From an uncultured Verrucomicrobiota bacterium (GTDB lineage: Bacteria; Verrucomicrobiota; Kiritimatiellia; RFP12; UBA3636), in assembly GCA_946534105.1 (NCBI GenBank), contig CAMNCG010000017.1, forward strand, positions 1 to 33,362: 33,362 nt of DNA, written 5' to 3'. Positions 7,362 through 27,949 of the stretch are shown here, one piece after another. The position numbers and the translations under genes are program-made. The notes beneath the pieces were generated by a model. That model did no database searches. It was given only the letters and a program-made list of their open reading frames with translations, and was not told where the DNA came from. Numbering within the stretch: the first letter of the stretch is position 1; each line of letters begins with the position of its first letter.

Positions 7362-7427
7362 TGCGCAAACGGATAAATCCCGCTTGCTCAAACTGGTGTA
7401 GCGCGGGCAGAAGCGCCGTGCCAGAAT
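7362..7427 (+). promoter_or_regulatory. AraC-type tandem operator and promoter of the 7454 glycosidase
   Basis: Two direct repeats, TGCGCAAACGG (from 7362) and TGCTCAAACTGG (from 7385), start 23 bases apart and flank the palindrome GGATAAATCC (7371-7380). GGTGTAGCG follows. A TGC-CAGAAT extended -10 lies at 7419-7427, 37 bases from the second repeat. No -35 is visible, as expected for activator-dependent promoters. The same elements at the same spacing occur at 27884-27949. The predicted RNA start is near 7435. Confidence 0.7.
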
Positions 7428-7453
7428 TGACGGCGAAAGGGCGCGATAGGGCC

Positions 7454-10400
7454 ATGCTGGGACCTCTAGGACAACGCAGACGCAGGTTGGGGCGCGAATC
7501 GGCCGCCGATTTCACGGCGGCGGCGTTCGCGCTTTTCCTCGCCTTGTCCGCAGCGTCCGCGCGCGGCGGCGAAATCTGGCGGCTGGGGAAGGCCGACGGC
7601 TCGCCGTCCGGGTTCCTCCCTTACCGGGCCTGGGAATACGGGAGCGCTCCGGATGTCGCGAACAGCCCCGAGATGGACGCCCTGTCCCATACGTGGCGCT
7701 TTGCCGTCCCCTCCGTGGCGACGACGCTCTCGTCGTCGCGAATCCCATCCTCGATTTGCTCCGTCTTCGAGAGCGTCTTCATGCGCGACGAAGAGGTCGT
7801 GACGGGCCTCGAACTATCCTGGGACGAATCCGCGCCCGGTTTCCGCATCCTCCGCGTCGAATGCTGCAACGCCGGCCACATGCCGGAAAACGGCCTCGGC
7901 GGGGTCGAAATCTCCCTCCCCGACGGCCGCCGCCGCCTCTACGACATCCCCGCGCGCGGCGCGGACGGCTCGCCGCCGCGCTTTTCCTACGACTTCGCGA
8001 TGCCCGTCGCCCCCGGACGCAATGCCGCGACGATCCGCGTCGTCTCCCCGGGCAAGCACGAGTCCGTGACCTTTGACTCGATCGCGCTTGTCGAATCCGA
8101 TGTCGTGCCGGAGTTCCAGCCGCTTCTGGAAATCGCATCCTCCGATCCCGACGGCGTTTTCCATCCAGGCGGCGACGCCCGCCTTGCGCTGCACCTCTCC
8201 AACGCCGATGCGGGGCTCGTCCGCTACGAGGTGCGCGACATCGCGTCGAATGTCGTCTTCCGGGGCGAGGCGGAAATCGCGGGCGGGCATGGCGAAGCCG
8301 CGCTCCCCGCGGATCGTCTCGGCTGGTTCGGCGTCTCCGCCGCCTTCCGCGACGACGAGGCGTCGTCGACACGCCAGTGCGCCGCCGCCGCAACCTCCTA
8401 CTGCGTTCTGGAGCCGCCGGAGGAGGGCTTCATCGACTCGTCGCGCTTCGGCTGCCACGCCGTGGGCGGCGACGGCTATTTCCTGCGCGACACCGCGCTC
8501 CGCCGCGAAAGGACGGAGCGCGCTCTGCGCCGCGCCCGCCTCGCCGGCGCGAAATGGGCGCGCCTGCACTACCTGAGCTGGGCGCTCCGCGAACCGGAGC
8601 GCGGCCGAGACGTCTGGGACGGACTCGACGAACGGCTCGACCTGGCCGCCCAAAACGGCCTCCTCATCCTCGTGAACGTCGTCGGCGTCCCGCGCTGGGC
8701 CTCGCCTTCGGCGGATGGAAAACTCACCGTCACCGGGGAGCCGCGCTGGAAAATGGCCGCCCCGTCGGACCTCGCCGCCTGGTCGAACTTCGTGAGCCGC
8801 CTCGTCTCCCGCTGCAGGGGGCGTGTCTCCGACTGGGAAATCGGAAACGAACCCGGCCATCAAAGCGCATTCTGGACCACGGGCAGCCCGGAGGATTTCG
8901 CCGCCTACCTCAAGACCGCCTACATCGCCGCCCACGCCGCCGACCCCGCGTGCCGCGTATATCCCGGCGCCCCGCTTGACGCGCATTTCCTCGAAGAAAC
9001 CGTCGCGGCGGCCGGGGGCGTCGCCGACTTCGACTCGCTGAGCGTCCACTACCTCGGCAACGCGAAGCGCTTCTCCTCCAAGGCGGCGGGCTGGCGCGCC
9101 CTGCGCGACGCCATCGCCCCCGGCCTCGCGATCGTGAATTCCGAGGACATGGGCTGGCATTCGGAGCGCGGGAGCGGCCCGCTCGCCGTCGCTTCCGCAA
9201 TGGTGAAGCTTCATGTCCGCGACGCGGCGGCCGGCGTCTCCCGCACCTTCGCCTTCCAGCCCTTCATCCAGGGCAGCCCCTACTCCTTCCACGACGTGCG
9301 CGGCGCGCCGCTCCCGGCCTTTGCCGCCTACCGCGCCATGACGCACCGCCTCGAAGGCGCCGCCTACGTCGGCGATCTCTCGACCCGCGAATGCGAGGCA
9401 TACGTCTTCGACCGCGCCGGGACGCCCGTCACGGTCTTCTGGAACGCGCTTTCCGTCCCGGCCGCATTCCGCGCGACGCTCGGCGGCGGGTCCTTCACGG
9501 CCGTTGACTTCATGGACAACGAGTCGCCCGCCGCCCCCGGTGCGGACGGTATTCTCGCCCTCCCCGCCGCGCCGCGCCCGCGCTATGTCGAGGGTGGCGA
9601 CTGGGACGCCATCCGCGCCGCCCTTGCGCAAAGCGCCGCCGCGCGGGCGGAGGCCGCCACGACGCATCCGCTCGGCGAAAACCTCGTCCCGCCCGGACGC
9701 CGCGCCTTCACCGCGAGCGGACGCCGCTTCGAGACCGTCGCCCATTCGGTCCCCGTCCGCTATGGCGACACCTATCTCTTCGCCGCTACGATTCGAGGCG
9801 CCGGCACCCTCGACGGCATCGTCGCCGTCCATGGCGCAGACGGTGGAGAACTCTGGCCGCGAAAGCAGGGACTCAACTGCCTCCGCGACCGCCGCGCCGG
9901 GCCGGAGTGGAAAACCGTCGCGGACACCTTCACCATTGCGGACGAAAAGGCCGCGACGCTCCGCCTCGTCCTCGTTGCCGACTTCTCGGAGCAGGCCGCC
10001 GGCGCCCCGATTGAAGTCCGGGACATCACCGTGGCGCAAATCTCGGAAACCCATTCCGCATCCAAGGCGCTTCATCGGGGCGCGTTCGGAACGGACGCCT
10101 TCGGCCCGCCGATCGCCATTCCCGGCGCGACGGCGAGATTGGCATTAGGCGGACGTTTCGTGGAAACGTCCCTGCCAGAGCACACGCAAAGTGGTAGGGA
10201 CGCGCCCACGGCGCGTCCGCAGCCTTCCCTGCGCCTCCGCTTCGAGGTCGAGGACGACGCCTTCGACCCGCCAGATGGCCCGGAGAACTGCTGGCTCAAC
10301 GATTCGATCCAGTTCGCCATCGACCCGCGCGACGACGGCACGGACTTCACCTCCTTCCGCCTCCTGCGCACGGCGGACGGGCGCGACATCCTCTACAAGG

Positions 10401-10723
10401 ACCGCAACTACACGACCCCCGAACTGCCCGACGACATTACGCGCCGGGGTGTTGTCCAGGACGCGGAGATCGCGTTCCGCCGCACGTCGTCTGGCTACTC
10501 CTTCGACCTTTCCATACCGGTTCGCGAGCTCTATCCGCTCAAGGCGGACGCGCGCGCCTTCGGCTTCAACTTCCTCGTCAACGACTCGGATGGCGGCCCC
10601 CGCGAGTGGCGGGAATGGACGGAGGGCATCGGCGGCATCAAGACCGCCGCGCCCTTTGGCCATCTGGGCAGGGAAGAAAAACAGGCAAGGCAAACGCCAA
10701 ACCAAACTAAGGAGCACAAATGA
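7454..10723 (+). CDS. Secreted GH39/GH5-like glycosidase with C-terminal CBM9-like domain
   Basis: The GTG at 7418 lies next to the -10, so ATG 7454 is the start, giving about 1089 residues. The N-terminus is Arg-rich and then hydrophobic ('AAFALFLALSAASARG'), a signal peptide. Beta-sandwich-like regions precede a clan GH-A barrel: 'AGAKWARLHYLSWALREPE', acid/base Glu466 in 'WEIGNEPGH', and likely nucleophile Glu564 in 'VNSEDMGW'. The pattern is closest to GH39-like and related enzymes; exact family and substrate are unsure. The last ~160 residues ('DSIQFAIDPRDDGTD', 'SFDLSIPVREL', 'EWTEGIGGIK') match a CBM9-like sugar-binding domain. A 72-base palindromic element (10149) forms the linker before that domain. 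The stop overlaps the next start by 4 bases (ATGA). Confidence 0.8.
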   Translation: MLGPLGQRRRRLGRESAADFTAAAFALFLALSAASARGGEIWRLGKADGSPSGFLPYRAWEYGSAPDVANSPEMDALSHTWRFAVPSVATTLSSSRIPSSICSVFESVFMRDEEVVTGLELSWDESAPGFRILRVECCNAGHMPENGLGGVEISLPDGRRRLYDIPARGADGSPPRFSYDFAMPVAPGRNAATIRVVSPGKHESVTFDSIALVESDVVPEFQPLLEIASSDPDGVFHPGGDARLALHLSNADAGLVRYEVRDIASNVVFRGEAEIAGGHGEAALPADRLGWFGVSAAFRDDEASSTRQCAAAATSYCVLEPPEEGFIDSSRFGCHAVGGDGYFLRDTALRRERTERALRRARLAGAKWARLHYLSWALREPERGRDVWDGLDERLDLAAQNGLLILVNVVGVPRWASPSADGKLTVTGEPRWKMAAPSDLAAWSNFVSRLVSRCRGRVSDWEIGNEPGHQSAFWTTGSPEDFAAYLKTAYIAAHAADPACRVYPGAPLDAHFLEETVAAAGGVADFDSLSVHYLGNAKRFSSKAAGWRALRDAIAPGLAIVNSEDMGWHSERGSGPLAVASAMVKLHVRDAAAGVSRTFAFQPFIQGSPYSFHDVRGAPLPAFAAYRAMTHRLEGAAYVGDLSTRECEAYVFDRAGTPVTVFWNALSVPAAFRATLGGGSFTAVDFMDNESPAAPGADGILALPAAPRPRYVEGGDWDAIRAALAQSAAARAEAATTHPLGENLVPPGRRAFTASGRRFETVAHSVPVRYGDTYLFAATIRGAGTLDGIVAVHGADGGELWPRKQGLNCLRDRRAGPEWKTVADTFTIADEKAATLRLVLVADFSEQAAGAPIEVRDITVAQISETHSASKALHRGAFGTDAFGPPIAIPGATARLALGGRFVETSLPEHTQSGRDAPTARPQPSLRLRFEVEDDAFDPPDGPENCWLNDSIQFAIDPRDDGTDFTSFRLLRTADGRDILYKDRNYTTPELPDDITRRGVVQDAEIAFRRTSSGYSFDLSIPVRELYPLKADARAFGFNFLVNDSDGGPREWREWTEGIGGIKTAAPFGHLGREEKQARQTPNQTKEHK
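10149..10220. repeat. In-frame inverted pair of REP-like palindromes within the glycosidase gene
   Basis: Two hairpins, 10151-10171 (GGACGTTTC, GTG, GAAACGTCC) and 10198-10218 (GGACGCGCC, CAC, GGCGCGTCC), sit in opposite orientation. Read in the same sense, both 25-base units are GCGGACG, four variable bases, GTG, the four complementary bases, CGTCCCT. The stem changes are compensatory (TTTC/GAAA versus CGCC/GGCG). The whole unit is 72 bases, a multiple of three, and has no stop, so it adds 24 residues to the linker before the CBM9-like domain. Confidence 0.8.
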
Positions 10724-13239
10724 ACATCAAGCGCAACTATAGGGCAACAGTCCTATTCGCAGCAGTCGCGGCAACTTCGCTAAATGCATTCGCCGCCGCG
10801 ACCATCTCAGAGGACACGGTCGCGTCTTCTTCGGCGACATACAACGAAGAACTTCGCATCGACGCGAACCTGACCGTTCCATCCAATGTCACCTTGACGA
10901 TGGCGAACGGAACCAGCGCGTATCTTCCCTATTCCGCTGGCAAGGATACGACGTTGAGAACGACTGGCGGAACGTTCAAGTTCTACGACTGGCAAATCGC
11001 TGCGCAGCACAATGACCTGATTCTCGGCGCAAATGGGGGGAAGGGACATATAGTTGTCGATGCTGGCGACTTCATGGTCAACAGTGCCGTGATAAGCCGA
11101 AATGCAGAGGCAGACGCATCGGGCTACGTCGATTTTGCGACCATCAACGGCAGGTTTCTCCGTGGCGCGTTCTACGTGATGAGCGTGTCTCCGGCGCGAA
11201 TAAAATTCTCTGGAGGCGGCATGATCCCCCCGCACACAACATCGTTGCGCGATTTCTTCAGCATCGGTGAAGGTTCCGAATTAGTTCTTTTTGCGGACAA
11301 CCACGAGATTTCGTTCAACCTCAATCCCGGCCTCTCGTTGGACTTCCGCCTTAACGCTGGGAGCGGCAAATTCACGACGGGCGGAACAGGCAACATGAGA
11401 TTCTACGCCAACGGGGGTGCCAGCAAGGTTCGTTTTTGTGCCGGAGAAGACCGCGCAACGTGGGGGCATTCCGGCGACACCGTTTTCGACGGCCCGGTAA
11501 ACGTCATTCTGGAACAAAACCAGTCATTGCCGCATGGAGAAGACACTGGAATCGTGAAGTTCACGTCCAGCCAGGCCGGAACAATGTCGCGTCAAACAGA
11601 TCTCAATGGATTCACCAGTGCCGTGAATGGCATTTGGGCGGATGCCAACGCGATTTCCCATGCAATCATCACGAACAGCAGCGAAAGCGCCGAAGGCGTC
11701 CTGCAGTTCGGAGTCCGCAACGAAGATTCGTCGATAGTCGCTCCGTCTATCCGTGGAAACTGCGCTATTGAAAAACTCGGGACCGGAACGCTTTCGATTA
11801 CGAACCTCGTGGTTCAAAAAATGCGAGTTCTCGGCGGCACGGCGAAAGTCGTGGGCGCGTCGGTGTCTGCGGAGAGCATCGTCGTTTCAAACGCCACCCT
11901 TGTCGTGGACGGCGTGACGCTGGCGGCGCAAAGCATTGTCTGCATTGACGGTGGCGATATCACATTCGCCAACGGCGGGGCGGTTTCCGCCGGTTGTGAG
12001 GTTCGCCGCAGTCTCGACACCGCCAACTATCCATCGAAGTGGACGGCCTTCGGCATCAAGGATTACGGCTATGTCGATCCGTTTGGGGCGGGGACTTCCG
12101 TTGACATCGTAAAACGGAATTCCGATACGTTCACCTACTACCAGGCGGCTCCGACAATTGGCGATATTGACATCCGGGAAGGCACGCTCCGGTTCGGCGG
12201 CGAACCCTGCACGTTGCACTATCCCTGGTGGCGGCTTACCATCAGGAAATCCGCAGGCTCGGTATCCCGGACTGCGGCTGGCGTGAGCGAGACGATGCAT
12301 GCCGGTCTGGGCCGCTGGTGGGTTGTCACTCCGGAATTGACCGATCGCAGGGGAAGCGGCAACTGGTCAGGCCCGTCTCTCATGCCGTTCGGGCAGTCCT
12401 TGGCGGCAGGAACACCAACCGCCGATTTGGGCGAAAGCAAATGGACGGCCGCAAAGCCGTGGGTTGTGGCATCAGGTGCTGATTCCATCGCCCAAAGCAT
12501 GACCTGGACGTTGCCGGATACTTTGGGCCGTCTTTTCAACAACGGAAACTACGAGTACTATTTGAGCACCGTCTTTGCCAATGTCGCGCCAAATCCCACG
12601 GATTCGGCATCATGGGAGAGCGTCGCGTTTCGCTTCGGCAGTGCCCAGGCGGCCGCATATACCATCGGCGGCTACCTTTTGTCCATTCCAGTCGGCATTC
12701 CCGGCATCTCGCCAGTAAGTTGGACTGTCGAAACTTCCCCGGACGGAAACAACTGGACGGAAGTGGATGTCCGCGACGATGTCGATCCTGCGGATCTTTC
12801 GGGCTACTGGATGAACGGCGGCAAGATGTTCCTTTTCAATGCCAATGCGGCATCGTGGACGTTCTCTCCAACTGGAATGGTGAAGGTGGCTGCGAGTGCG
12901 ACGCTAGACCTGTCGGAGATACCGACGGAAAACATCGCGATACGTGGCTTGGAAGTCGATGTCGAAAACGGCGGAGGCTCAATCACCAAGTTCGTTCCGT
13001 CGCCCGATGGACTTCTTTCGCTCGACAACGTTCCCGCCGAAAGTCTTGACGCAAACGGTCTAATCGCCTCTCCGCTGGTTCTTCCCGTCTCCATCGAAAC
13101 GGTATCTGGCGCGGACAACCTCGCTTCATGGTCTGTTGTTGCCAACGGTGTCCCTCAAAACGGCGCCAAGGTGCTGCTGACTTCCGGTGGCGCAATCAAG
13201 GTCTCGCGCACATTCCCGACAACAGTTGTCTTCCGATAA
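10720..13239 (+). CDS. Secreted beta-repeat protein, A/T-richer than its neighbours
   Basis: An 839-residue secreted protein with an AAGGAG ribosome-binding site (10709-10714) and a signal peptide ending 'AFAAATI'. It is dominated by short beta-strand turns. 'IEKLGTGTLSITN' resembles the autotransporter-associated repeat also seen in the 2911 protein. Near residues 670-690 'VSWTVETSPDGNNWTEVD' recalls a discoidin-like (F5/8 type C) beta-sandwich strand. The C-terminus is 'FPTTVVFR'. No catalytic motif was recognised. It overlaps the glycosidase gene by 4 bases and is followed 41 bases later by the dehydrogenase, so it belongs to that operon. Its base composition is visibly less G/C-rich than the genes on both sides, which may reflect separate acquisition. 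A surface-scaffold or glycan-binding role is inferred only from context. Confidence 0.7.
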   Translation: MNIKRNYRATVLFAAVAATSLNAFAAATISEDTVASSSATYNEELRIDANLTVPSNVTLTMANGTSAYLPYSAGKDTTLRTTGGTFKFYDWQIAAQHNDLILGANGGKGHIVVDAGDFMVNSAVISRNAEADASGYVDFATINGRFLRGAFYVMSVSPARIKFSGGGMIPPHTTSLRDFFSIGEGSELVLFADNHEISFNLNPGLSLDFRLNAGSGKFTTGGTGNMRFYANGGASKVRFCAGEDRATWGHSGDTVFDGPVNVILEQNQSLPHGEDTGIVKFTSSQAGTMSRQTDLNGFTSAVNGIWADANAISHAIITNSSESAEGVLQFGVRNEDSSIVAPSIRGNCAIEKLGTGTLSITNLVVQKMRVLGGTAKVVGASVSAESIVVSNATLVVDGVTLAAQSIVCIDGGDITFANGGAVSAGCEVRRSLDTANYPSKWTAFGIKDYGYVDPFGAGTSVDIVKRNSDTFTYYQAAPTIGDIDIREGTLRFGGEPCTLHYPWWRLTIRKSAGSVSRTAAGVSETMHAGLGRWWVVTPELTDRRGSGNWSGPSLMPFGQSLAAGTPTADLGESKWTAAKPWVVASGADSIAQSMTWTLPDTLGRLFNNGNYEYYLSTVFANVAPNPTDSASWESVAFRFGSAQAAAYTIGGYLLSIPVGIPGISPVSWTVETSPDGNNWTEVDVRDDVDPADLSGYWMNGGKMFLFNANAASWTFSPTGMVKVAASATLDLSEIPTENIAIRGLEVDVENGGGSITKFVPSPDGLLSLDNVPAESLDANGLIASPLVLPVSIETVSGADNLASWSVVANGVPQNGAKVLLTSGGAIKVSRTFPTTVVFR

Positions 13240-13280
13240 AACTCCCACGGGCGTTTTTCAGGACAGGAAGGAGAACTCGA

Positions 13281-14420
13281 ATGAGCGACAGCAACCAGAG
13301 CGTTTCGACGAAGATCGAGGGGAAGAAGGCCTCGTTCAAGGGCAGGAAACTCCGCATCGCCGTTGTCGGCTGCGGGGGAATCGCCAACTACCACATGGAG
13401 ACGTATCGCAAAATCGAGAACGCCGAAGTCGTCGCAGGGTGCGACATCGTGCGCGACCGACTCGACCGGATGCGCGACAAGTGGGGCGTCCCCGAAAACG
13501 CGCTCTTCATCGACGGTTCGCAGAAGCCTTGGCGCGCGATGCTCGCGGCCATGAAGGGGAAGATCGACGCGGTCGATGTCTGCACCCCGAACGGCGTCCA
13601 CGCCCCTGCGGTGATAGACGCCTGCAACGCCGGCCTCCACGCGATGACCGAAAAGCCAATGGCGATGACGGTCAAGGAATGCAAGGACATGGTCGCCGCC
13701 GCGAATCGGAACGGCGTGAAACTCGCCGTGGGCTTCCAGCGCCGCTATCAGGACAACACGCAGAATCTGGCGCGGATGCGGGCCGAGGGCTTCTTCGGCG
13801 ACGTGATGCTCGTTCGGGTGCGCGCTTGCCGCCGCCGCGGCATCCCCAATTGGGGCGTATTCGGGCAGAAGGACAAGCAGGGCGGCGGCCCCCTTATCGA
13901 CATCGGCGTCCACATCATCGAAAGCGCGATGGCGTTTCTCGGAAACCCGACCCCGGTTTACGCCTCCGCCGGGACATGGACGTTCATCGGCGACAAGCCG
14001 TCGGAAACGATGTCGATGTGGCCGGGCTGGGATCACAAGACATACACGGTCGAGGACTTCGCCTGCGGCCAGATTCGATTCGACAACGGAACGATCATGC
14101 AGATTGAGTCGTCGTTTGCCGACCATCAGAAGGAGCACGACATTCAGGACTGGTGGGCTTACGGGACGAAGGCAGGCTGCCAATGGAGCACAAGTGAAAT
14201 CTGGACCGATCAGAACCGCATGATGGTAAACATGGCGCCCGTGTTCATGCCGGAGTGCGACTGGGACGTCGTCTTTGAGCGCAAGCTCCGCAATTGGATC
14301 GACGGGTGCCTCAACGGAACTCCGCTTCAGGCTTCCGGCGAAATCGGCCTCAACGTCCAGAAGGTTCTTTGCGGCCTTTACGATTCGGCGAAGGTCGGCC
14401 ACGAGATTCGGATCAGGTAG
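13281..14420 (+). CDS. Gfo/Idh/MocA family dehydrogenase
   Basis: A 379-residue cytoplasmic oxidoreductase, start set by AGGAAGGAG 7 bases upstream of ATG 13281. The N-terminal Rossmann fold has 'RIAVVGCGGIANYHMETY' (NAD(P) binding), 'VCTPNGVHAPAVIDACNAG' and 'TEKPMAMTVKECKDM', where 'EKP' carries the conserved catalytic-site Lys of this family. The C-terminal alpha/beta domain has 'GGGPLIDIGVHIIESAMAFLG', with the usual D...H pair. Such enzymes oxidise or reduce sugars, inositols and related polyols, or act in the first oxidation step of some glycosidases' product pathways. The substrate cannot be read. It sits between a beta-repeat protein and an FAD oxidoreductase, suggesting joint redox processing of the sugar released by the 7454 glycosidase. 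Confidence 0.9.
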   Translation: MSDSNQSVSTKIEGKKASFKGRKLRIAVVGCGGIANYHMETYRKIENAEVVAGCDIVRDRLDRMRDKWGVPENALFIDGSQKPWRAMLAAMKGKIDAVDVCTPNGVHAPAVIDACNAGLHAMTEKPMAMTVKECKDMVAAANRNGVKLAVGFQRRYQDNTQNLARMRAEGFFGDVMLVRVRACRRRGIPNWGVFGQKDKQGGGPLIDIGVHIIESAMAFLGNPTPVYASAGTWTFIGDKPSETMSMWPGWDHKTYTVEDFACGQIRFDNGTIMQIESSFADHQKEHDIQDWWAYGTKAGCQWSTSEIWTDQNRMMVNMAPVFMPECDWDVVFERKLRNWIDGCLNGTPLQASGEIGLNVQKVLCGLYDSAKVGHEIRIR

Positions 14421-14434
14421 AACGGGGCTGCCGG

Positions 14435-16626: not shown

Positions 16627-16723
16627 CGTTTGCGCCCCTCGCGGCGATATGGTAGGATTGAATCCGTCAACGACATGGAATGCGTGAGATGGAAACCGCC
16701 GGGCACAAACTGAAAATCTACTG
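16627..16723 (+). repeat. Duplicated promoter-plus-toxin-start module, copy 1
   Basis: These 97 bases recur at 27351-27447 with only about three mismatches. The first ~35 bases recur again at 18346-18380. The block covers a promoter (TTGCGC at 16630-16635, 17-base spacer, extended -10 TGG-TAGGAT ending 16658) and the first codons of the PIN toxin. Homology stops abruptly inside the coding region. Confidence 0.85.
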
Positions 16724-17198
16724 CGAGACCTCCTTCTGGAGCTACCTCGTAGGTGGTCCCACATCGGATGAGAAGGTCGCCCGGTGGCAGGCCCTGACCC
16801 GAAAGTGGTGGGAATGCGAGCGCCCATACTGTGATGTGTTTATTTCCAACTATGTCGAACAGGAAGCGCGGTTGGGAAATGCGGCTTTTTCCGAGAAACG
16901 CCTTGAAGCGATGTCTGCGGCAGTAAAACTTGACGTAGCACCATCTTCGGTCGTTCCTATTGCCGCAGAATTATTGGCTGCCCATGCACTTCCACCGGAC
17001 GAGAAGACAGACGCTCTTCACATTGCAACTGCCGCATATCACGGAATGGATGTGCTTCTAACATGGAACTGCCGGCATCTTGCAAACCTTTTCACACTTC
17101 CGAAGACAATCGCGGCTATAACGACACTTGGTTTTACGTGCCCGCTAATCATTACTCCCGAACGCTACTTGGAGGATATTCGCCATGGCAACGACTGA
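16680..17198 (+). CDS. PIN-domain (VapC-like) toxin
   Basis: A 172-residue PIN-domain ribonuclease of a type II toxin-antitoxin pair. Conserved acidic positions are seen in 'LKIYCETSFWSYL' (Glu in place of the usual Asp, as in this subfamily), 'VEQEAR', and 'KTDALHIATAAYHGMDVLLTWN', the last with the typical PIN 'DALHIA' and 'LLTWN'. The C-terminal 'CPLIITPERYL' is the usual end of this subfamily. PIN toxins cleave RNA and are held inactive by the partner. ATG 16689 is an equally likely start. The gene overlaps the antitoxin by 14 bases. Its base composition is A/T-richer than the flanking glycan genes, in line with a mobile cassette. Confidence 0.85.
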   Translation: MREMETAGHKLKIYCETSFWSYLVGGPTSDEKVARWQALTRKWWECERPYCDVFISNYVEQEARLGNAAFSEKRLEAMSAAVKLDVAPSSVVPIAAELLAAHALPPDEKTDALHIATAAYHGMDVLLTWNCRHLANLFTLPKTIAAITTLGFTCPLIITPERYLEDIRHGND

Positions 17199-18598: not shown

Positions 18599-19780
18599 TC
18601 ATCGTTGCGGGTGGCGACCTCGCCACCGCCCCGGCGTGACGCCGAACCGTTCGCGGAACAGGCGCTCCATCGGGCGGCGTCCGCCGAAGCCGCACACCGT
18701 GGCGATTTCGCCGATGCGGGCGTTCCCGGAGCGGAGCATCCCGCAGGCAAGTTCGAGCCGGCGGCGGCGGATCGCGGCGGCGAGGCCCTCCGTGTGCAAT
18801 TCGCGAAAGCGAAGTTCGGCAAGGCGGCGGGAAACGCGCAAATGAGCCGCGACTTCGCCCGTGCCGATTCCCTCGGCGGCGTGGTCGTGGATGAAGTCCA
18901 GCGCCCTCCGGACGAGCGCCGCCGCCGGCAGCGGCGCGCGGGTGGAATCGCGTACGACGACCGATGCGTGCCCGGTTGACGGCACCATGTTGCGCGGCGG
19001 CTCCATGGCACCGCCCGCGCGTCCGGACGCCAGCATCCGGCGGAGCGTTTCGGCGATTTCCGCGCCGATGGCTTCCTCGTCGATGCGGATGCTCGAAAGC
19101 GTAGGGCGCGAAATGGCGCACATGTAGGCGTTGTCGTCCACCCCCAGAAGGGAAGCCTGCGACGGAACTTCGATTTTCGCCCGGCGGCATGCGTCGAGCG
19201 CCTCCATCGCGGAACGGTCGTTCGCCCCCATCACGGCGAACGGCTTCGGCAACGATTCGATCCATTCGGCGAGCGTCGAGGGGCCGGCGGAAGTCCCGAA
19301 CGCCGACCATTCGACGCCGGCCCTTTGCGCCGCCCGCGCGAAACCCGTCATCCGGTTTTCGCTCCATGCGGCCTTTTCGGAGAACGGGACGAATCCGAAG
19401 TGCCGGAAGTTCCCGCACCCCGCAAGGTGCGAGAATCCGAGTTCTCCGATCCACGAGTCCAATGTGACGCCGTCGTAGAACGTCACGCCGCGGCGCGGCG
19501 GCGGCACGGTCATGTCCGGCGTGTCGATGACCACCGCCGCCATGGGCGACGCCGCCAGGGCGTCGACGACATCCCACGAGGACGCCTTGGACACCAGGAC
19601 GCCGGCCGTCCCCGATGCCGCGAGGCGTCGGACGGATTCCGGGGTGAAGTGATCGCAGTCCGGCTCGACGTCGATCTCCCACCTGCACCGCGCGGTGGCG
19701 AAATCCAGCGCCCCGGCGATCATCCGGCTGCGCGGGGCGTTGTAGGGCTGGACTGCGAAAACGACCTTTTTCCTCTTCAT
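18599..19780 (-). CDS. XylR-like transcriptional regulator
   Basis: A 393-residue protein with a LacI/GalR-like sensor ('KKVVFAVQPYNAPRSRMIAG', 'GFARAAQRAGVEW', 'FAVMGANDRSAMEALDACR', 'SLLGVDDNAYMCAIS', 'PTLSSIRID') and a C-terminal AraC-type domain ('VAAHLRVSRRLAELRFREL', 'FRERFGVTPGRWRG'). Its ATG is only 8 bases from a strong promoter, so its RNA is probably leaderless. It diverges from the GH13-like gene across a 125-base control region, the classic arrangement for a regulator acting on its neighbour and itself. It likely responds to a sugar released by that cluster. The family call is secure; ligand unknown. Confidence 0.92.
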   Translation of the reverse strand: MKRKKVVFAVQPYNAPRSRMIAGALDFATARCRWEIDVEPDCDHFTPESVRRLAASGTAGVLVSKASSWDVVDALAASPMAAVVIDTPDMTVPPPRRGVTFYDGVTLDSWIGELGFSHLAGCGNFRHFGFVPFSEKAAWSENRMTGFARAAQRAGVEWSAFGTSAGPSTLAEWIESLPKPFAVMGANDRSAMEALDACRRAKIEVPSQASLLGVDDNAYMCAISRPTLSSIRIDEEAIGAEIAETLRRMLASGRAGGAMEPPRNMVPSTGHASVVVRDSTRAPLPAAALVRRALDFIHDHAAEGIGTGEVAAHLRVSRRLAELRFRELHTEGLAAAIRRRRLELACGMLRSGNARIGEIATVCGFGGRRPMERLFRERFGVTPGRWRGRHPQR

Positions 19781-19821: not shown

Positions 19822-19858
19822 TTTTCGCATTTTGTCGCAAAACGATTGCGCAAATCGT
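19822..19858. promoter_or_regulatory. Probable operator between divergent genes
   Basis: An A/T-rich tract with four-base CGCA repeats: TTTTCGCA-N6-CGCA (19822-19839) and CGCAAATCGT (19849-19858). CGCA words start at 19826, 19836 and 19849, so the first and last are 23 bases apart, as in the paired repeats at 7362. TTGCGCAA (19847-19854) is a perfect palindrome. It is placed upstream of both -35 elements, as expected for a shared operator. Confidence 0.5.
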
Positions 19859-19869
19859 CGTATTGCCGC

Positions 19870-19898
19870 TTGCGCGGCCCGGTCGTTTCTCGTATTGT
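19870..19898 (+). promoter_or_regulatory. Promoter of the GH13-like gene, leaderless
   Basis: TTGCGC (19870-19875), 17-base spacer, TATTGT (19893-19898), then exactly 7 bases to ATG 19906. This fixes the start codon at 19906 and not at the upstream TTG of the same open frame. Confidence 0.65.
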
Positions 19899-19905
19899 TG
19901 CAGTC

Positions 19906-22900: not shown

Positions 22901-23133
22901 TGCGTCCGGGTGCGGACGACTTCGAACTCGAAGCCGCCATATCCATCGAGCGCGACTATGCCAAGGGGGAAGGCGAAATCGTGTTGCGCGTAGCCGGCGA
23001 CGACGGCAGTTCATACCGTTGGCTCACGCCTGAAACGTCCCTTTCCATGCCCAAAGGCGCCTGGCGCGGTGTCAGACTGCACTTCGGCAAGGGAAAAACA
23101 ACACAAACAACGAAGGAAACAACTCATGAGTAA
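19906..23133 (+). CDS. Secreted GH13-like (alpha-amylase clan) glycosidase with extra domains
   Basis: A 1075-residue protein with signal peptide 'ILVSIALSLAGTNRATDF'. An N-terminal beta domain (to about residue 270) precedes an alpha-amylase-type barrel with all four conserved regions: 'WRDAVPHGGHVDF' (region I), 'DGWRIDVATG' with nucleophile Asp439 (region II), 'TLGETTRF' with acid/base Glu489 (region III), and 'MENHDSHP' with His551-Asp552 (region IV). A beta-sandwich ends the barrel near 'FGWEVRRV'. A palindrome-bearing linker (21930-21991) joins a C-terminal region of about 390 residues with no recognised family. Motif wording departs from common amylases, so substrate is uncertain; GH13 and neighbouring GH-H families act on alpha-glucosides. 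The stop overlaps the next gene by 8 bases. Confidence 0.82.
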   Translation: MRNHTAILVSIALSLAGTNRATDFAAPDGCGNEGPAAFRATFDTDSGRITSVSDGGRVVFAADPEEAKAVEFAFEGGPGSGSGHQDVESFWRWRLDWRTHPLDRMLQGTLSFEWRGEAPVRLKSITIHHGKLAGGACGAARRESLSDLGRNVGANTPCDPSYILSGLFPPLSRTFADFRPGRVEEGSEYTPFAFGANGAGSSVMLAHDELRPYSDYAKPLVTERADGICLSTRYESAGWIRPNEPQTVGDFWLVFRDGSTEDHLRHTGNWFRKIGMAPPANRPEWVRDIVACYSMHPCGRNDDMRCDPDGLALSRSYLPLLEALGANCVWMRPIEDKAPYMPRDYYRLQPGVGSAEDLAAYVADAHSRGMRVWRDAVPHGGHVDFPRAKEHPEFLAWKEDGRPDTWWTYDYFNPGWLSTFSGIVRDLTAAAALDGWRIDVATGSRFPNWNPDVPYARGSFARCQGALAMNRAIRAAARAVTPDAATLGETTRFSGAAVCDSTYDFRPNLMWFWRFTDTPVADCVRNIRRHLHECQAALPPGAIQVRYMENHDSHPALPLFGRAGATALFAMTAFCDGYPLIYQEAEDGCFEAMREILRVRRETPELLHGDADYDCVSAPGGVFAVLRTLGDGAVMALVNFNGKSARGEVSWPGGAFDCDLPPFGWEVRRVAGEGAGTSRVPQSSRRSPAVPAQAPDATASGQGPEVFAALLDGTSASCRIATEPLPSGAVRYRVADLAGMDATNVQIVVRLPNASRWFAQTAEGDFDGTSFVRHPRLGWVGSTVKHGRHDTSVRWTSLLHPFGFTSGRACVGIESEDGASIVLSGFNARFAEVCILDRVHGDPGLAIAIRASDPAGLVCEVSAGGSWGEALPLPAACSLTGLPELTAVMAGWEWESGGLRLAIRRNGTLRGAWRRDPASGGWRQVAGTVDIRTDTGVGRKDPFGNPDNQICSQNDAFGDPIRFWKGDDGAVHLDFGPGDLRTFDAKMAVPIWYRTRYTLRPGADDFELEAAISIERDYAKGEGEIVLRVAGDDGSSYRWLTPETSLSMPKGAWRGVRLHFGKGKTTQTTKETTHE
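21930..21991. repeat. REP-like palindromes in the linker of the GH13-like protein
   Basis: Hairpins at 21930-21948 (CGGCAC, 7-base loop, GTGCCG) and 21976-21991 (CCGGCGC, AG, GCGCCGG) lie within the Pro/Ala/Ser-rich linker between barrel and C-terminal region. They are weaker than the elements at 1090 and 10149 and could be chance in high-GC coding DNA, but their linker position is the same. Confidence 0.4.
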
Positions 23134-24496
23134 ACCAATAATTGGCGGCCTGACAGCGATTTGCCTCGCCATCCCCGGCGTGGCCGTCTTCGCCGCGCCC
23201 CCTGTGATCGACGCCTCGTCGGTCACGTTGTCGCAGGTCGGCAACCGCACCGCCGTCGTGCGCTACCGTCTCACCGGCGCCCCGGCCGTCGTCACCTTCG
23301 ACATCGAGCATCGCGACGGCGACGGCAACTGGTCATCCGTCGGCGTCGATTTCGTCACGCTCGCTGGAGACGTGAACCGCCTCGTCCAGCCGGACGACTC
23401 CGCCCTCAAGGAAATCCGCTGGGAGGCGCGCAACGACTGGCCGGACCAGTCCTTTCAGGACGGCTCCGTCCGCGCCCGCGTCACCGCATGGGACAAGGCC
23501 GCTCCGCCCGACTACATGGTGATCGACCTCTCGGACTTTTCGGAAACCTTCTACGAAACCGCCGACAGGCTTCCCCTCGGCGGCCTTTCCAACGACTACT
23601 ACCGCACGAACGCGCTCGTCATGCGCCGCATCCACGCCGCCGGCCAGACCTTCGTCATGGGCCAGCAGACAAGGGACTCGGATTCCTCCACGTGCGAGGC
23701 GTCCTTCCGGAACAGGGCGCCCGAGCATTGGGTCGCGCTCACCAACGACTTCTACATGGCCGTCTTTGAGACCACCCAGCGCCAGCACCAGCGCCTGCAG
23801 CTCGTCGATGGCGGCGGAAACAAGGACTCCAGAGACCTGACGAGCGTCATGCAGCCCGTCGATGCGATGTCCTACAACAAACTTCGCGGTTCCGTCGCGG
23901 AAGGCATCGACTGGCCGGTCACGGGGACTGCCGTCGGCGGACTTCTTGCCGCGTTTCGGGCCAACTCCGGGATCGAATTCGACATCCCCACGGAGGCCGA
24001 ATGGGAGTTCGCGTGCCGCGCCGGGACGCAGAGCGCCTTCTATGACGGCAGCGAGTTCACGACGGCCGACGAGGGGTCCGCCACCCTCGGCGACCTCGCC
24101 TGGTTCTGCGGAAACTGCGTTGCCGATTCGGAACTCATGAACGACAACGGCTACTACGGCGGCATCAAGGTCCCCGGCCTCAAGAGGCCCAACGCCTGGG
24201 GCCTTTACGACATGTACGGCAACGCCTCCGAGTGGTGCAAGGACTGGGCGGGAGCCTACGACACCGCATCCGCCCCGACCATCGCTCCCGGTGGCGCCGC
24301 GTCCAACGCCGAAAACACGGTCGGCCGACGCATCAAGCGCGGCGGCAACTGGCGTGGACGGGGCGCCTTCGCTTCCTCGTCGGGCCGACGCTCCAATGAA
24401 GTCACCTACACCGTCGACGCCGGCAACGCTTCCTCCCAGGGCTCCGCGACTTGGGCCAACGGCTACCGTCTTGTCTGCCCGGCCGTGGCAAAGTAG
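23126..24496 (+). CDS. Secreted protein with formylglycine-generating-enzyme (FGE/SUMF1) fold, no catalytic Cys pair
   Basis: A 456-residue secreted protein with signal peptide 'LTAICLAIPGVAVFAAPP' and a GAAGGA ribosome-binding site. An N-terminal beta domain of about 140 residues precedes an FGE-sulfatase fold: 'PTEAEWEFACRAGTQSAFYD', 'NAWGLYDMYGNASEWCKDW', 'RIKRGGNW' and 'NGYRLVCP'. FGE enzymes need a Cys pair just after the 'RGGSW' turn; here that stretch is 'NWRGRGAFASSSGRR', without Cys, so sulfatase activation is unlikely. Related C-type-lectin-fold proteins bind ligands, and a glycan- or surface-binding role is inferred. It overlaps the GH13-like gene and is followed by a paralogue. 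Confidence 0.82.
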   Translation: MSKPIIGGLTAICLAIPGVAVFAAPPVIDASSVTLSQVGNRTAVVRYRLTGAPAVVTFDIEHRDGDGNWSSVGVDFVTLAGDVNRLVQPDDSALKEIRWEARNDWPDQSFQDGSVRARVTAWDKAAPPDYMVIDLSDFSETFYETADRLPLGGLSNDYYRTNALVMRRIHAAGQTFVMGQQTRDSDSSTCEASFRNRAPEHWVALTNDFYMAVFETTQRQHQRLQLVDGGGNKDSRDLTSVMQPVDAMSYNKLRGSVAEGIDWPVTGTAVGGLLAAFRANSGIEFDIPTEAEWEFACRAGTQSAFYDGSEFTTADEGSATLGDLAWFCGNCVADSELMNDNGYYGGIKVPGLKRPNAWGLYDMYGNASEWCKDWAGAYDTASAPTIAPGGAASNAENTVGRRIKRGGNWRGRGAFASSSGRRSNEVTYTVDAGNASSQGSATWANGYRLVCPAVAK

Positions 24497-24500
24497 AAAC

Positions 24501-24527
24501 CACGAAATACACGAAACACACGAAAGG
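24501..24527. repeat. Three tandem 9-base repeats
   Basis: CACGAAATA, CACGAAACA and CACGAAAGG in direct succession fill most of the 38-base gap between the two FGE-fold genes. The third carries the AAAGG that may serve as ribosome-binding site for ATG 24535. Confidence 0.8.
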
Positions 24528-24534
24528 CCCCTCC

Positions 24535-25965
24535 ATGAAACACGCATCCATCGCCGCGCTCGGCGTCCTCGTTTGCATGTTCGCGATGCCAGGCGCGAGT
24601 CCCGCTGCGCCCGCCGCAACCGTCATTTCCACGACCCAAAGCGCCACGACGCGCATGGTCTCCGTCACCTTCGACCTCTCCGAGCCGGCCATCGTCACGC
24701 TCGGCGCGCAAACGAGCGCCGATGGCGGCTCGACGTGGGCGGACATCGACGGCTATGTCGTCCACGTTGTCGGCGACGTCAACAAGAAACTCGCCGCCGG
24801 AAACGGCTACACGGCGCTTTGGGACGCGGATCTCGACTGGCCGGGACACCCGGAAAGCGGCGAAGCCATCCGCCCCGTCGTCCGCTGCTGGACGGAGGAC
24901 GACCCGCCGGACTGGTTTGTGATGTCGCTCCTCGACAAGTCCCGCCGATGGTACTTCACCGACGCGCGGCAGATCCCCGGCGGCGTCACGAACCGGCTCT
25001 ACAAGACCGACTACCTCGTCATGCGCCGCATCCACGCCAGGGACGTTGTCTGGCAGATGGGTTCCGACAGCAGCGAACCGGGGCGGATGGCGGGGACGCA
25101 GGACGGCGGCGAGACGCCGCAGCACTACGTAAAACTCACGCACGACTACTACATGGCCGTTTTCCCAGGCACCAAGGGGCAGTCGGTCCGCCTTTTCTCC
25201 TCGTCGCTCAGCACCTCCGAAAACCCCGACTGGTTCCCAGTCAACGCATGCCACCATCTCTTCCTGCGCGGATATCGCGCCGCGTCGGGGCAGCCCTGGT
25301 CATACGTCTCCGGTGCTGAGGATCCAGTGGCCGGCTCCAACCTCGACAAGCTGCGCGCCGCGACCGGGCTGGCGTTTGACATTCCGACCGAGGCGCAATG
25401 GGAGTTTGCCTGCCGCGCCGGAACGGCGACGGCGCGCTACGACATGGAATGCGACGTTGACGACATGGGCTGGCATTCGGGCAACAGCGGCGGCGCCATC
25501 CATGAAGTCGGCCTGAAGAAACCCAACCCGTGGGGCCTCTATGACATGTATGGCAACGTCACCGAATGGTGCCGCGACTACTCCGGCGGCTACGGGACCG
25601 CCGCGACGCCATCTGCGGCGATCGTCGATCCGGCGGGTCCCGCCTCGCACGAAAGAAACTACCGCGTCAAGCGCGGCGGCTCCTCCCGCTCCCCTGCCGC
25701 GAACTGGTTCCGCAGCGCGAGGCGCGGCTACTGCGACCAGTCCTGGACAACGACGCCCAACGCATCCGACGGCGGCGGTAGCGGTAGCGGCAGCGACTAC
25801 TTCTCCGGCTACCGGCTCGTCATCGACCTTCCCGCAAGCGCCGCGTCGACATCCGCCGCCCCCGGCGCGGCGGACGCCTTCCAGACCATCGCCATCGACG
25901 AGGCGTTCTCCGAAGGCGTCAACTTCAGCACCATGCCTTCCGGCACGGTGATCCTTTTTCATTGA
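24535..25965 (+). CDS. Second secreted FGE-fold protein, no catalytic Cys pair
   Basis: A 476-residue paralogue of the preceding gene, with signal peptide 'LGVLVCMFAMPGASPAAP' and the same N-terminal beta domain ('ADGGSTWADIDGYVVHVVGD'). The FGE fold shows 'PTEAQWEFACRAGTATARYD', 'NPWGLYDMYGNVTEWCRDY', 'RVKRGGSSRS' and 'YFSGYRLV'. The stretch after the 'RGGS' turn is 'SRSPAANWFRSARRG' with no Cys pair. A Gly-Ser run (about 25772-25795) sits in a loop. The protein has an added C-terminal tail ending 'MPSGTVILFH', reminiscent of the ends of the 2911 and 10720 proteins. It is the last gene of the 19906 cluster; a binding or scaffold role is inferred. Confidence 0.82.
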   Translation: MKHASIAALGVLVCMFAMPGASPAAPAATVISTTQSATTRMVSVTFDLSEPAIVTLGAQTSADGGSTWADIDGYVVHVVGDVNKKLAAGNGYTALWDADLDWPGHPESGEAIRPVVRCWTEDDPPDWFVMSLLDKSRRWYFTDARQIPGGVTNRLYKTDYLVMRRIHARDVVWQMGSDSSEPGRMAGTQDGGETPQHYVKLTHDYYMAVFPGTKGQSVRLFSSSLSTSENPDWFPVNACHHLFLRGYRAASGQPWSYVSGAEDPVAGSNLDKLRAATGLAFDIPTEAQWEFACRAGTATARYDMECDVDDMGWHSGNSGGAIHEVGLKKPNPWGLYDMYGNVTEWCRDYSGGYGTAATPSAAIVDPAGPASHERNYRVKRGGSSRSPAANWFRSARRGYCDQSWTTTPNASDGGGSGSGSDYFSGYRLVIDLPASAASTSAAPGAADAFQTIAIDEAFSEGVNFSTMPSGTVILFH

Positions 25966-26001
25966 ACCCACTACCATCCCATAGCCTGCAAAAACCCGCC
26001 C

Positions 26002-26079
26002 CCTGTCCGCGAGGGCGGGTTCCGCCTCGTCGCTCGCGACGCCCCTTCGGGGACGGCTTCACCCGCCCTCGCGGACAGG
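26002..26079. repeat. Nested inverted repeat able to fold as a three-way junction
   Basis: The outer arms 26002-26020 and 26061-26079 are a perfect 19-bp inverted repeat. Inside, GCC (24-26) can pair with GGC (55-57), and two hairpins follow back to back: 26028-26041 (CGTCGC, TC, GCGACG) and 26042-26052 (CCCC, TTC, GGGG). No T-run follows, so it is not a typical intrinsic terminator. It fills the gap between the FGE gene and the sialidase promoter. It may be a structured RNA or a palindromic mobile element. Confidence 0.75.
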
Positions 26080-26137
26080 TGCGCCCCGAACGGAGACCAC
26101 CGCGCCCCCGCCCCCGTCACCGGCACCGAAAACGGTC

Positions 26138-26166
26138 TTGAATCCGGTCCCGTGATATGGTAGTCT
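26138..26166 (+). promoter_or_regulatory. Promoter of the sialidase-like gene
   Basis: TTGAAT (26138-26143), 17-base spacer, TGG-TAGTCT (-10 at 26161-26166). The RNA should start near 26173, leaving a leader of about 90 bases before ATG 26262, longer than at other promoters here. Confidence 0.6.
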
Positions 26167-26197
26167 CTCCTCCGTCCGCAAGGAAGCCTCGGCGGAT

Positions 26198-26228
26198 GCT
26201 GGCTACGCAACGGGTGTTGCGCTGGCTA
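26198..26228 (+). promoter_or_regulatory. Direct and inverted repeats in the sialidase leader
   Basis: GCTGGCTA occurs at 26198-26205 and 26221-26228, 23 bases apart. Between them lies the inverted repeat CGCAAC-GGGT-GTTGCG (26206-26221). The 23-base period equals that of the operator repeats at 7362 and 27884. Downstream of the -10, it could act as a repressor site or as an RNA hairpin. Confidence 0.45.
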
Positions 26229-26261
26229 GTGGATGTAGGGGGGAAGGTTCGTTGCATTTCT

Positions 26262-27338
26262 ATGGGCATGAACGCTCCGCTCCTACACTGTTTTCCCATG
26301 TTCCTGATTGCACCTTTCGTTGCGTCCGACCTCTTCGCCAACTCCGAGTTCTCCACCCGCATGGTGGAGAACCGTCCCGGCTACAACTCCTGGCCCATGG
26401 TCCAGGCTCTGGACGGAGGGCGCATCGTATGCGCCTACAGCAGCGGCAAGGGGCACTCAACCGGCGAAGGATCCCGCGGGGCGTTTGCCCGCGTCTCCGA
26501 CGACGGTGGCGCGTCGTGGGGCGAATCGGTTTGCGTGGCGGATTCCCCGGAATGGGGGGAGTGCGTCGTCGGCAAGGGGTTGGATGCTTCCGGTGCAATG
26601 CTCCTCTGGGTTCGCCGGCAGGGAGCCGGAGGCTGGGACACCGGCACTTTCCACGGCCTCTACCGATCTTCCGACGGCCTTGTCTGGGAGAGGGTCGCCT
26701 CGCCGTCACTCGACCCCGAGCCCATACAAATCACCGACGTCCTCCGTCTTCCGGGCGGAGTCCTGATGTCTCTTTGGTTCGCGGGAAACTACTGCGACGA
26801 CGCGCGCAATGCGTGGGGAACGCTCATGAGCCGTGACAACGGCTCCACTTGGGAACAGCACACGGTTGAGCTGGGTATGTCGAAGTCCGAGTGGCCGACA
26901 GAACCCTCGGCCGTCGTTCTCCCGGACGGACGCATCCTCGCCGTCACCCGCACTGAAATTTGCCATGCGGGGCAACTCCAACTCCTCTCCAACGACGGAG
27001 GGGCGAGCTGGACGAAGCATCGCACCAACATCACGGACGTCAATGCCTCGACGCCCTCCCTTGTCTTCGATCCGGCGACGGGACTCCTCTCCTGCTACTA
27101 CTACGAGCGCGGTCCCGGACTGCTCAAGCGCCGTGTCGCGAAAGCCGCCGACATCGCCGCCAACCCGATGGCCTGGCCAGTGCCGGAAATCCTTGCGCAA
27201 GGCGGCAAGGTGCGTCCGCACGACTCTGGCAACGCCAACTCCACCTCGTCCGGCGGACGCCATTTCGTCGCCTGGTATTCCGGGAATCCGGTCAACGCCG
27301 CCGTCCTCGTAACCTCTGCTCCGCAGCCAACTCCATGA
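26262..27338 (+). CDS. Secreted sialidase-like (BNR/Asp-box) protein
   Basis: A 358-residue six-bladed beta-propeller of the sialidase superfamily. The longer open frame begins inside the promoter, so translation likely starts at ATG 26262 or 26268, giving a signal peptide 'FLIAPFVASDLFA'. Asp-box repeats are 'SDDGGASW', 'SRDNGSTW' and 'SNDGGASW'. 'TRMVENRPGYNSWPMVQALDG' marks the first blade, and 'EPSAVVLPDGRILAVTRTE' holds the usual acidic position. The set of three catalytic arginines of true sialidases could not be confirmed by eye, so another exo-glycosidase or a lectin-like role remains possible. It is encoded as a single gene with its own promoter. Confidence 0.78.
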   Translation: MGMNAPLLHCFPMFLIAPFVASDLFANSEFSTRMVENRPGYNSWPMVQALDGGRIVCAYSSGKGHSTGEGSRGAFARVSDDGGASWGESVCVADSPEWGECVVGKGLDASGAMLLWVRRQGAGGWDTGTFHGLYRSSDGLVWERVASPSLDPEPIQITDVLRLPGGVLMSLWFAGNYCDDARNAWGTLMSRDNGSTWEQHTVELGMSKSEWPTEPSAVVLPDGRILAVTRTEICHAGQLQLLSNDGGASWTKHRTNITDVNASTPSLVFDPATGLLSCYYYERGPGLLKRRVAKAADIAANPMAWPVPEILAQGGKVRPHDSGNANSTSSGGRHFVAWYSGNPVNAAVLVTSAPQPTP

Positions 27339-27350
27339 CGGACGAAAGCC

Positions 27351-27447
27351 CGTTTGCGCCCCTTGCGGCGATGTGGTAGGATTGAATCCGTCAACGACAT
27401 GGAATGCGTGAAATGGAAACCGCCGGGCACAAACTGAAAATCTACTG
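27351..27447 (+). repeat. Duplicated promoter-plus-toxin-start module, copy 2
   Basis: Near-identical to 16627-16723. It carries TTGCGC (27354-27359), 17-base spacer, TGG-TAGGAT (-10 at 27377-27382), and the first codons of the PIN toxin. The homology ends at the exact point where the toxin body has been lost. Confidence 0.85.
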
Positions 27448-27513
27448 TATGAGTGTCCGGCGATTCTGACGCCGGAAGAGTTTTTGAGCCGCAGGGAGGA
27501 GTTTGGAATATGA
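27404..27513 (+). pseudogene. PIN toxin gene with the core deleted
   Basis: The start encodes 'METAGHKLKIYC' exactly as in the toxin at 16680. The sequence then jumps, out of frame, to 'CPAILTPEEFLSRREEF', the normal C-terminal end of this PIN subfamily, and stops at TGA 27511-27513, overlapping the antitoxin start. About 130 codons, including every catalytic residue, are gone. The C-terminal remnant differs from the copy-1 toxin end, so this cassette carried a different toxin body. Confidence 0.85.
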
Positions 27514-27761
27514 GCGCAACAAAAATTGACTGGAACGATCCGAAATACAATGATCCAATGGAGGAAATCTATGCCATCCGGCGCATGATTTCCGAAGAAT
27601 ACGGGCATGACATATACCGCTATGCAGCGGCAATCCGCGAAAAGGACGCCCGCGCCAAGGCGTTGGGCATGACCTACGGCGAATACTGCCTCGCGGAGGT
27701 CGAAGGCAGGCTTCCCCTTTGCGCTGGCGAGGAGCCGACCGAATACAAGGCCGGGAACTGA
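27510..27761 (+). CDS. Orphan antitoxin of the deleted PIN cassette
   Basis: An 83-residue protein with a strong AGGGAGGAG ribosome-binding site. The N-terminal half ('DPMEEIYAIRRMISEEYGH') matches the pattern of PIN-associated antitoxins ('DPIVEEVRRIREEYA') but is unlike the 17185 protein. The C-terminal half from 'KDARAKALGMTYGEYCLAE' is almost identical to that protein, also at DNA level and for a few bases beyond the stop. With its toxin lost, it could serve as an anti-addiction antitoxin, though this is speculative. Confidence 0.75.
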   Translation: MSATKIDWNDPKYNDPMEEIYAIRRMISEEYGHDIYRYAAAIREKDARAKALGMTYGEYCLAEVEGRLPLCAGEEPTEYKAGN

Positions 27762-27779
27762 AGGCGCAGCCCTCACCGT

Positions 27780-27858
27780 GGTCGCGCGGAAGCGCGACCC
27801 TCCCAATGCGGCGGCGGCGCGCGGAAGCGCCCCTGGGACGACACGCTTCCAGCGTGTC
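27780..27858. repeat. REP-like palindromes
   Basis: Hairpin 27780-27799 (GGTCGCGC, loop GGAA, GCGCGACC) is followed by CTCCCA. Hairpin 27840-27858 (GACACGCT, TCC, AGCGTGTC) follows 40 bases later. The stem-plus-CCCTnCC design matches the units at 10149-10220. They lie between the antitoxin and the GH42 operator. No gene is seen in 27762-27883. Confidence 0.7.
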
Positions 27859-27883
27859 ATGGACGTCCGGCGGCGCGCTTCGT

Positions 27884-27949
27884 TGCTCGAATGGATAAAT
27901 CCACGATGCGCAAAACGGTGTAGCGGGACGCAAGGGCAAGTGATATCGT
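27884..27949 (+). promoter_or_regulatory. AraC-type tandem operator and leaderless promoter of the GH42 gene
   Basis: Direct repeats TGCTCGAATGG (27884) and TGCGCAAAACGG (27907) start 23 bases apart and flank GGATAAATCC (27893-27902); GGTGTAGCG follows. The extended -10 TGA-TATCGT ends at 27949, 37 bases from the second repeat to its first base, exactly as at 7385-7422. Seven bases separate the -10 from ATG 27957. Confidence 0.75.

Follow-up and report, generated by a model that had tools for sequence, protein, structure and literature searches.

Two glycosidase genes lying 20 kb apart in an uncultured Verrucomicrobiota bacterium are each preceded by the same tandem direct repeats and promoter elements, which raises the question of what reads these sites and whether the two genes are controlled together. 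Both genes lie within a stretch of 33,362 nt (GenBank assembly GCA_946534105.1, contig CAMNCG010000017.1), referred to throughout as the window; its genome is designated G000 and the window is contig C17 of that genome. A first-pass annotation had proposed a regulator of the AraC/XylR activator type, identified it as the product of the gene at 6124, and joined the two glycosidase genes in a small regulon. At the level of comparative genomics all three parts of this proposal hold. Very probably, the XylR-type regulator whose gene lies at 6124–7329 (plus strand) uses both sites as its operators, and the adjoining promoters are of the class II activator kind and together form a two-promoter regulon.

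Architecture of the two operator-promoter regions

As read directly on the plus strand, site 1 (7362–7403) is TGCGCAAACGGATAAATCC-CGCT-TGCTCAAACTGGTGTAGCG and site 2 (27884–27925) is TGCTCGAATGGATAAATCC-ACGA-TGCGCAAAACGGTGTAGCG. Both operators have a tandem layout of 19+4+19 bp in which the repeat starts are 23 bases apart. At site 1 the promoter-distal half-site occupies positions 7362–7380 and the promoter-proximal half-site, at the -35 position, occupies 7385–7403; the corresponding half-sites of site 2 are at 27884–27902 and 27907–27925. The -10 hexamers are CAGAAT (7422–7427) at site 1 and TATCGT (27944–27949) at site 2, each directly preceded by TGn, resulting in the extended -10 elements TGC-CAGAAT (7419–7427; the hexamer is TAGAAT in the related genome G023) and TGA-TATCGT (27941–27949; TATAGT in the related genome G032). 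In both cases the -10 starts 37 nt past the start of the second half-site. The recurrence of the same parts at the same spacing, on which the annotation had been built, is therefore exact. Its division of the repeats was altered in one respect: the repeats are direct, as described, but GGATAAATCC, which had been listed as a separate part between them, is the inner box of half-site 1, and the natural unit is a pair of 19-bp half-sites.

In fixed register, 32 of 42 bases are identical between the two operators. The four upstream 42-base blocks share 9, 12, 13 and 18 of 42 bases, the last value belonging to the block that adjoins the operator, and the three downstream blocks share 12, 11 and 13 of 42. 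These values bear on the idea that the similarity reflects a recent duplication of a promoter segment and involves no shared regulation, an idea to which the presence of other repeated stretches in the window lends some substance. However, the similarity lies mostly within the operator, and the two -10 hexamers differ in sequence while occupying the same position; we consider a duplication of this kind extremely improbable.

Direct half-sites two helical turns apart, with the proximal one over the -35 and a poor -35 combined with an extended -10, make up the class II AraC arrangement, and direct rather than inverted repeats in combination with an AraC-type domain are the usual layout of an activator. 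At both window sites the proximal half-site lies over the -35 position, the -10 stands at a fixed distance and the -35 is poor, in agreement with class II (AraC-like) promoters. A simple consensus scan found no sigma-70-like -35/-10 pair at either site, and for this reason both promoters look activator-dependent. The same regulator and sites might instead serve mainly in repression, or in a dual role, in which case the protein would mask the -35 region and be released by a sugar; a LacI-like sensor half in the regulator and the position of half-site 2 over the -35 would suit such a role. Nevertheless, repression is unlikely in view of the activator-dependent look of the two promoters and of a repeat layout and DNA-binding domain that are typical of activators. 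In addition, PMC12125979 describes the studied Vibrio homologue as an activator.

The activator mechanism that we propose would proceed as follows. A dimer of the AraC-type DNA-binding domains of the 6124 protein would occupy the two 19-bp direct half-sites (TGCkCrAA plus inner box) at their 23-bp spacing, so that the half-site nearer the promoter stands where a -35 would be expected; the promoter itself has an extended -10 but lacks a recognisable -35. The bound, sugar-loaded protein would then contact RNA polymerase and activate transcription in the class II, AraC-like manner. The regulon would include at least the adjacent gene for a secreted glycosidase and the gene for a GH42 enzyme 20 kb away. 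Binding, dimerisation, activation rather than repression, and a sugar as the ligand are steps that we infer from the sequence.

Rarity of the pattern in the genome

With as many as 3 mismatches allowed, the full pattern of both half-sites matched the window at 2 places and gave 0 matches in 100 shuffles. Applied to the 3.93-Mb draft genome under the same threshold, it again matched only at sites 1 and 2, and the reversed pattern gave 0 matches. Random occurrence across the genome, which had been named beforehand as the outcome that would speak against a regulon, was thus not what the scan returned. When the inner boxes were left out, the bare pair TGCKCRAA-N15-TGCKCRAA with up to 2 mismatches matched the genome at 65 places versus 25 for the reversed control; at 2 mismatches it is far less specific than the full pattern. 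Perfect matches to the bare pair occur at three places, sites 1 and 2 and C279:101, and a match with 1 mismatch occurs at C135:1421. No Rfam family reached its gathering score in the window when RNA elements were looked for.

At the places on C279 and C135, TGCGCAA again occurs in tandem, here with GATAAA as the inner box (G000:C279:101–131, locus L045; G000:C135:1421–1451, locus L046). The C135 site adjoins another XylR-like regulator and has a -10 located 35 nt beyond its second half-site.

The regulator and its co-occurrence with the operator

The 6124 protein consists of an N-terminal periplasmic-binding-protein-like (LacI-type) sensor domain (PF13377, residues 121–286) and a C-terminal AraC-type double helix-turn-helix domain (PF12833, residues 319–395), both above the Pfam cut-off. 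Residues 12–399 align end to end with residues 25–409 of E. coli XylR (PDB 4fe7; E 1.2e-41, 26% identity), which bears out the earlier description of the protein as XylR-like. Both the domain order and this full-length homology are those of XylR-type regulators; tandem repeats of the kind such proteins bind are present and co-occur with the regulator, and their binding by the 6124 protein is a prediction. No xylose-metabolism family appeared among the Pfam matches of the 19 distinct window open reading frames (ORFs) scanned, 4 of which were without any match.

An order-wide scan, which returned 161 genomes, was carried out with a pattern that includes the GGTGTAG box and allows up to 1 mismatch. 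It identified 10 sites in 5 of the 161 genomes (G000, G001, G003, G023 and G032), two in each and all with 0 mismatches, and the reversed control gave 0. Relatives of the 6124 protein with at least 72% identity (E <= 1e-140) are found in exactly those 5 of 161 genomes, the next best relative being 62% identical. A stricter pattern containing GGATAAATCC gave 9 sites in 95 genomes, the tenth site being the diverged one in G032. The order regulator-operator-glycosidase is kept in G000, G001, G003 and G023 as well as in the diverged G032 locus. Together with the footprint in the 72% relative, presented in the next section, this co-occurrence supports the 6124 protein as the predicted reader of both sites, the role first assigned to it from its position next to site 1.

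In its own genome (G000; 3.93 Mb, 87% complete) the 6124 protein has 97 matches at E <= 1e-10, a count in which at least one gene (on C140) was apparently matched as two pieces; G000 apparently holds a very large set of LacI-sensor/AraC-domain regulators. Two other XylR-like matches occur in the window, at 98–883 and at 18599–19780 (minus strand). No close copy of either was present in the fetched stretches of G001, G003, G023 and G032, where the best relative is 52% identical (elsewhere on the G023 contig) and the others reach at most 37.3%.

Conservation of the operator in diverged loci

On contig C152 of G032 the regulator is 72% and the target glycosidase 70% identical, and the gene order is unchanged. 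The operator at this locus, TGCGCAAATAGATAAAAGA-GTGT-TGCTCAAACGGGTGTAGCG, keeps 33 of 42 bases (14/19 in half-site 1, 1/4 in the linker and 18/19 in half-site 2), while the neighbouring 42-base blocks keep 8 and 4 of 42 upstream and 13 and 17 of 42 downstream. Comparison with orthologous loci, which the first-pass annotation had suggested as a check, revealed an operator better conserved than its flanks.

This locus also bears on a further explanation, namely that the sites represent a palindromic operator (GGAT-AA-ATCC) of some other regulator that binds inverted repeats, the direct repeats being secondary. Both window sites contain the box GGATAAATCC, as do all 9 sites recovered with the pattern that includes it, some of which used 0 of the 3 mismatches allowed. 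However, the box has become AGATAAAAGA in the diverged G032 locus and is GTGTTAAAAA or AGAGTAAAAA next to the 62% paralogues, so that the palindrome is gone. What the G032 and paralogue operators retain is TGCGCAAA (half-site 1), T[GA]CkCAAA (half-site 2) and GGTGTA. Since the palindrome is lost and the repeat elements are kept, the direct repeats are likelier to be the functional part. We take the palindrome in GGATAAATCC to be incidental and consider an inverted-repeat-binding reader highly improbable.

Twenty loci of relatives (47–72% identical) were scanned for half-sites in tandem, with up to 2 mismatches and a spacing of 20–25. At 7 of them such a pair lies close to the regulator gene but not within it: six are within 75 nt upstream of the regulator and one is 373 nt downstream. 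The weakest of the seven, at L097 (2 mismatches), may be due to chance. Of 16 operator rows, 14 have a -10-like hexamer 35–38 nt downstream of the point where half-site 2 begins, and the two misses have theirs at 22; the scan covered 20–59 nt from that point and gave 22 matches over the 16 rows, 14 of them at 35–38. These rows are not all independent: sites 1 and 2 and their near copies account for five, and one operator was counted in both directions. Selection of the remaining rows was by half-site and not by -10; of the seven relatives' loci with pairs, L081 (a near copy of L080) and L097 were omitted. The -10 spacing is thus kept in related operators.

Several observations weigh against a regulon read by the 6124 protein. 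At 13 of the 20 relatives' loci a pair of this kind is missing from the vicinity of the regulator, and 2-mismatch pairs also turned up in that scan inside several regulator genes and, in two cases, farther upstream. Of 143 flanks, representing 73 of the 97 own-genome regulator matches, 6 carry the core pair (up to 2 mismatches, spacing 21–24), site 1 included; in the controls, eight spacing bands gave 2, 0, 1, 0, 1, 0, 0 and 0, the reversed core 1 and a complement-like core 0. Because only these 6 flanks carry the core pair, the half-site is not general to the regulator family. G032 possesses the site-2 operator but only a 72% identical regulator. Eight of the 10 sites found in the order-wide scan lie in segments whose genes are 95–99% identical in DNA, leaving few independent witnesses; the more independent ones come from G032 (two sites) and from the paralogue operators. 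Finally, the protein search scored at most 11 candidates per genome, and in draft genomes a gene truncated by a contig end would score below its threshold.

Helix 1 reads SRR[TY][LI]E in the five distinct operator-bearing relatives included in the -10 scan and SRSYLD in two relatives without a nearby operator. A recognition-helix code was not established: the paralogues L109 and L110, with SRR[YH]LE, have no nearby pair under 4 mismatches, and L114, which has a pair, reads SRRLVD. An identical-8-mer test for a family-wide spacing produced several peaks at multiples of three (21, 24, 42 and 51), as from coding sequence, and nothing was drawn from it.

Predicted target genes

The first predicted target (7454–10723, plus strand) encodes a probable secreted glycosidase with weak GH42/GH39 similarity in Pfam. 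When read from GTG 7418, the start of the listed longest ORF, the protein scored 25.4 bits for GH42 (1.1e-5; cut-off 21) and 21 bits for GH39 (1.7e-4; cut-off 26). The label GH39-like, under which it was first annotated, is accordingly weak, as GH42 is above the Pfam cut-off and GH39 below. No PDB sequence matched at E 0.001. Since GTG 7418 sits at the -10 element, and with the G023 homologue also taken into account, the gene likely starts at ATG 7454 rather than at the GTG; from this ATG the product is probably secreted, as judged from a signal peptide recognised by eye.

The second predicted target (27957–30113, plus strand) encodes a beta-galactosidase-like enzyme that, by its sequence matches, is a clear member of GH42 (Pfam GH42, 1.2e-35; PDB beta-galactosidases, best 1kwg at 2.3e-18). 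Counted from the final base of the -10, its ATG at 27957 starts 8 nt downstream, and an alternative second ATG is located at 27985. With the first ATG so soon after the -10, the GH42 mRNA may be leaderless.

Elsewhere in the window, the adjacent ORFs 23069–24496 and 24451–25965, which overlap by 46 bases, each contain an FGE-sulfatase (formylglycine-generating-enzyme-like) domain.

Probable spread of the regulon between families

DNA identity to the window in G001, G003 and G023 is 95.3–99.1% for the regulator, 97.7–98.6% for GH42 and 96.8–97.9% for the first glycosidase. For rpsI, G000 is 73.0% identical in DNA to G023, a member of a different family, and 86.5% identical to G001. Because the regulon genes are 95–98% identical while rpsI is at 73%, horizontal transfer is the likeliest explanation, and the regulon and its operators probably moved between families recently. 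On the G023 contig that carries the regulon, purD is closer to G023's own family, being 66% identical to that of G028 and 79% identical over 105 amino acids to that of G032, than to G000, where the figure is 57%; this argues against misbinning of the contig, though not against a chimeric assembly. Window segments 6142–10704, 26267–27367 and 27864–30094 match L040 (G023), and 13280–16619 matches L043 (G032), at 95–98% DNA identity, in each case in another family (rpsI 71–73%).

The boundaries of these matches around site 2 vary among genomes. In G003 and G023 the match is continuous through the operator. In G001 the DNA match covering GH42 starts at 27883, one base before the operator, and a separate upstream match ends at 27766. 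In G032 a 91% block (27882–27970) comprises the operator, the promoter and the first codons, with an upstream block (27448–27755) at 83%, and the GH42 match resumes at 27996 behind inserted sequence. The site-2 promoter and the MNLPS codons in that genome head a different, 1292-aa gene, and GH42 forms the C-terminal part of a 1099-aa ORF on the same strand (10736–14035 of L043) that overlaps the end of the 1292-aa gene; GH42 in G032 seems still to lie downstream of the site-2 operator.

Repeated stretches were observed near a PIN-domain gene (16680–17198) and before GH42: those at 16641, 17314 and 18338 are identical at 41, 42 and 39 of 42 bases to those at 27365, 27645 and 27349, respectively. 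They are possibly remnants of rearrangement.

Significance and relation to known systems

The regulon is a well-supported prediction of a kind already known, to which this instance and the 97 regulator matches in one genome are additions. It supplies a concrete predicted operator for one of many XylR-type regulators in an uncultured Kiritimatiellae-like lineage and links two glycosidases 20 kb apart as one predicted regulon, whose spread between families together with its operators is suggested by the identities above. The diverged relatives, whose operators match at a fixed spacing, may help to show what guides site choice in such regulators. What distinguishes the case is the clean co-occurrence over several genomes and the very large XylR-type set, together with the likelihood that an already wired regulon spread horizontally. 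A broader reading of these results together, which we put forward tentatively and rate at somewhat less than even, is that Kiritimatiellae of this sort run glycan use via an expanded set of about 100 XylR-type activators per genome, that one clade of these reads variants of one TGCGCAAA, 22–23-bp-spaced class II operator, and that transfer from family to family carries the glycosidases along with their regulator and operators in one self-contained package, which stays wired on arrival. In the partial literature collection searched, where absence is not proof, no paper was found that joins Kiritimatiellota/Verrucomicrobia with XylR/AraC-type regulators.

AraC at araI1-I2, a case of class II activation, likewise has a pair of direct half-sites at a distance of about two helical turns, and the half-site nearer the promoter overlaps the -35. 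The half-site spacing of AraC is about 21 bp, compared with 23 at the window operators, and its sensor domain is of another type. E. coli XylR (PDB 4fe4/4fe7) resembles the 6124 protein in full-length homology and the same domain order; it differs in that the two are only 26% identical and that the predicted targets of the 6124 protein are glycosidases. The E. coli xylA-xylF intergenic region contains two TTGCKCAA octamers resembling the half-site, a likeness that is suggestive. PMC8534289 places two binding sites for XylR in the xylA promoter of E. coli. For Vibrio, PMC12125979 reports that the XylR homologue XylRA binds paired direct repeats and activates xylan genes. As described there, the beta-1,3-xylan locus resembles the present regulon in that its regulator, an activator, joins a LacI-type sensor to an AraC-type domain and that several of its glycan genes are preceded by two direct repeats, and it differs in being gammaproteobacterial, in the AT-rich sequence of its repeats and in having xylose as the effector (PMC12125979).

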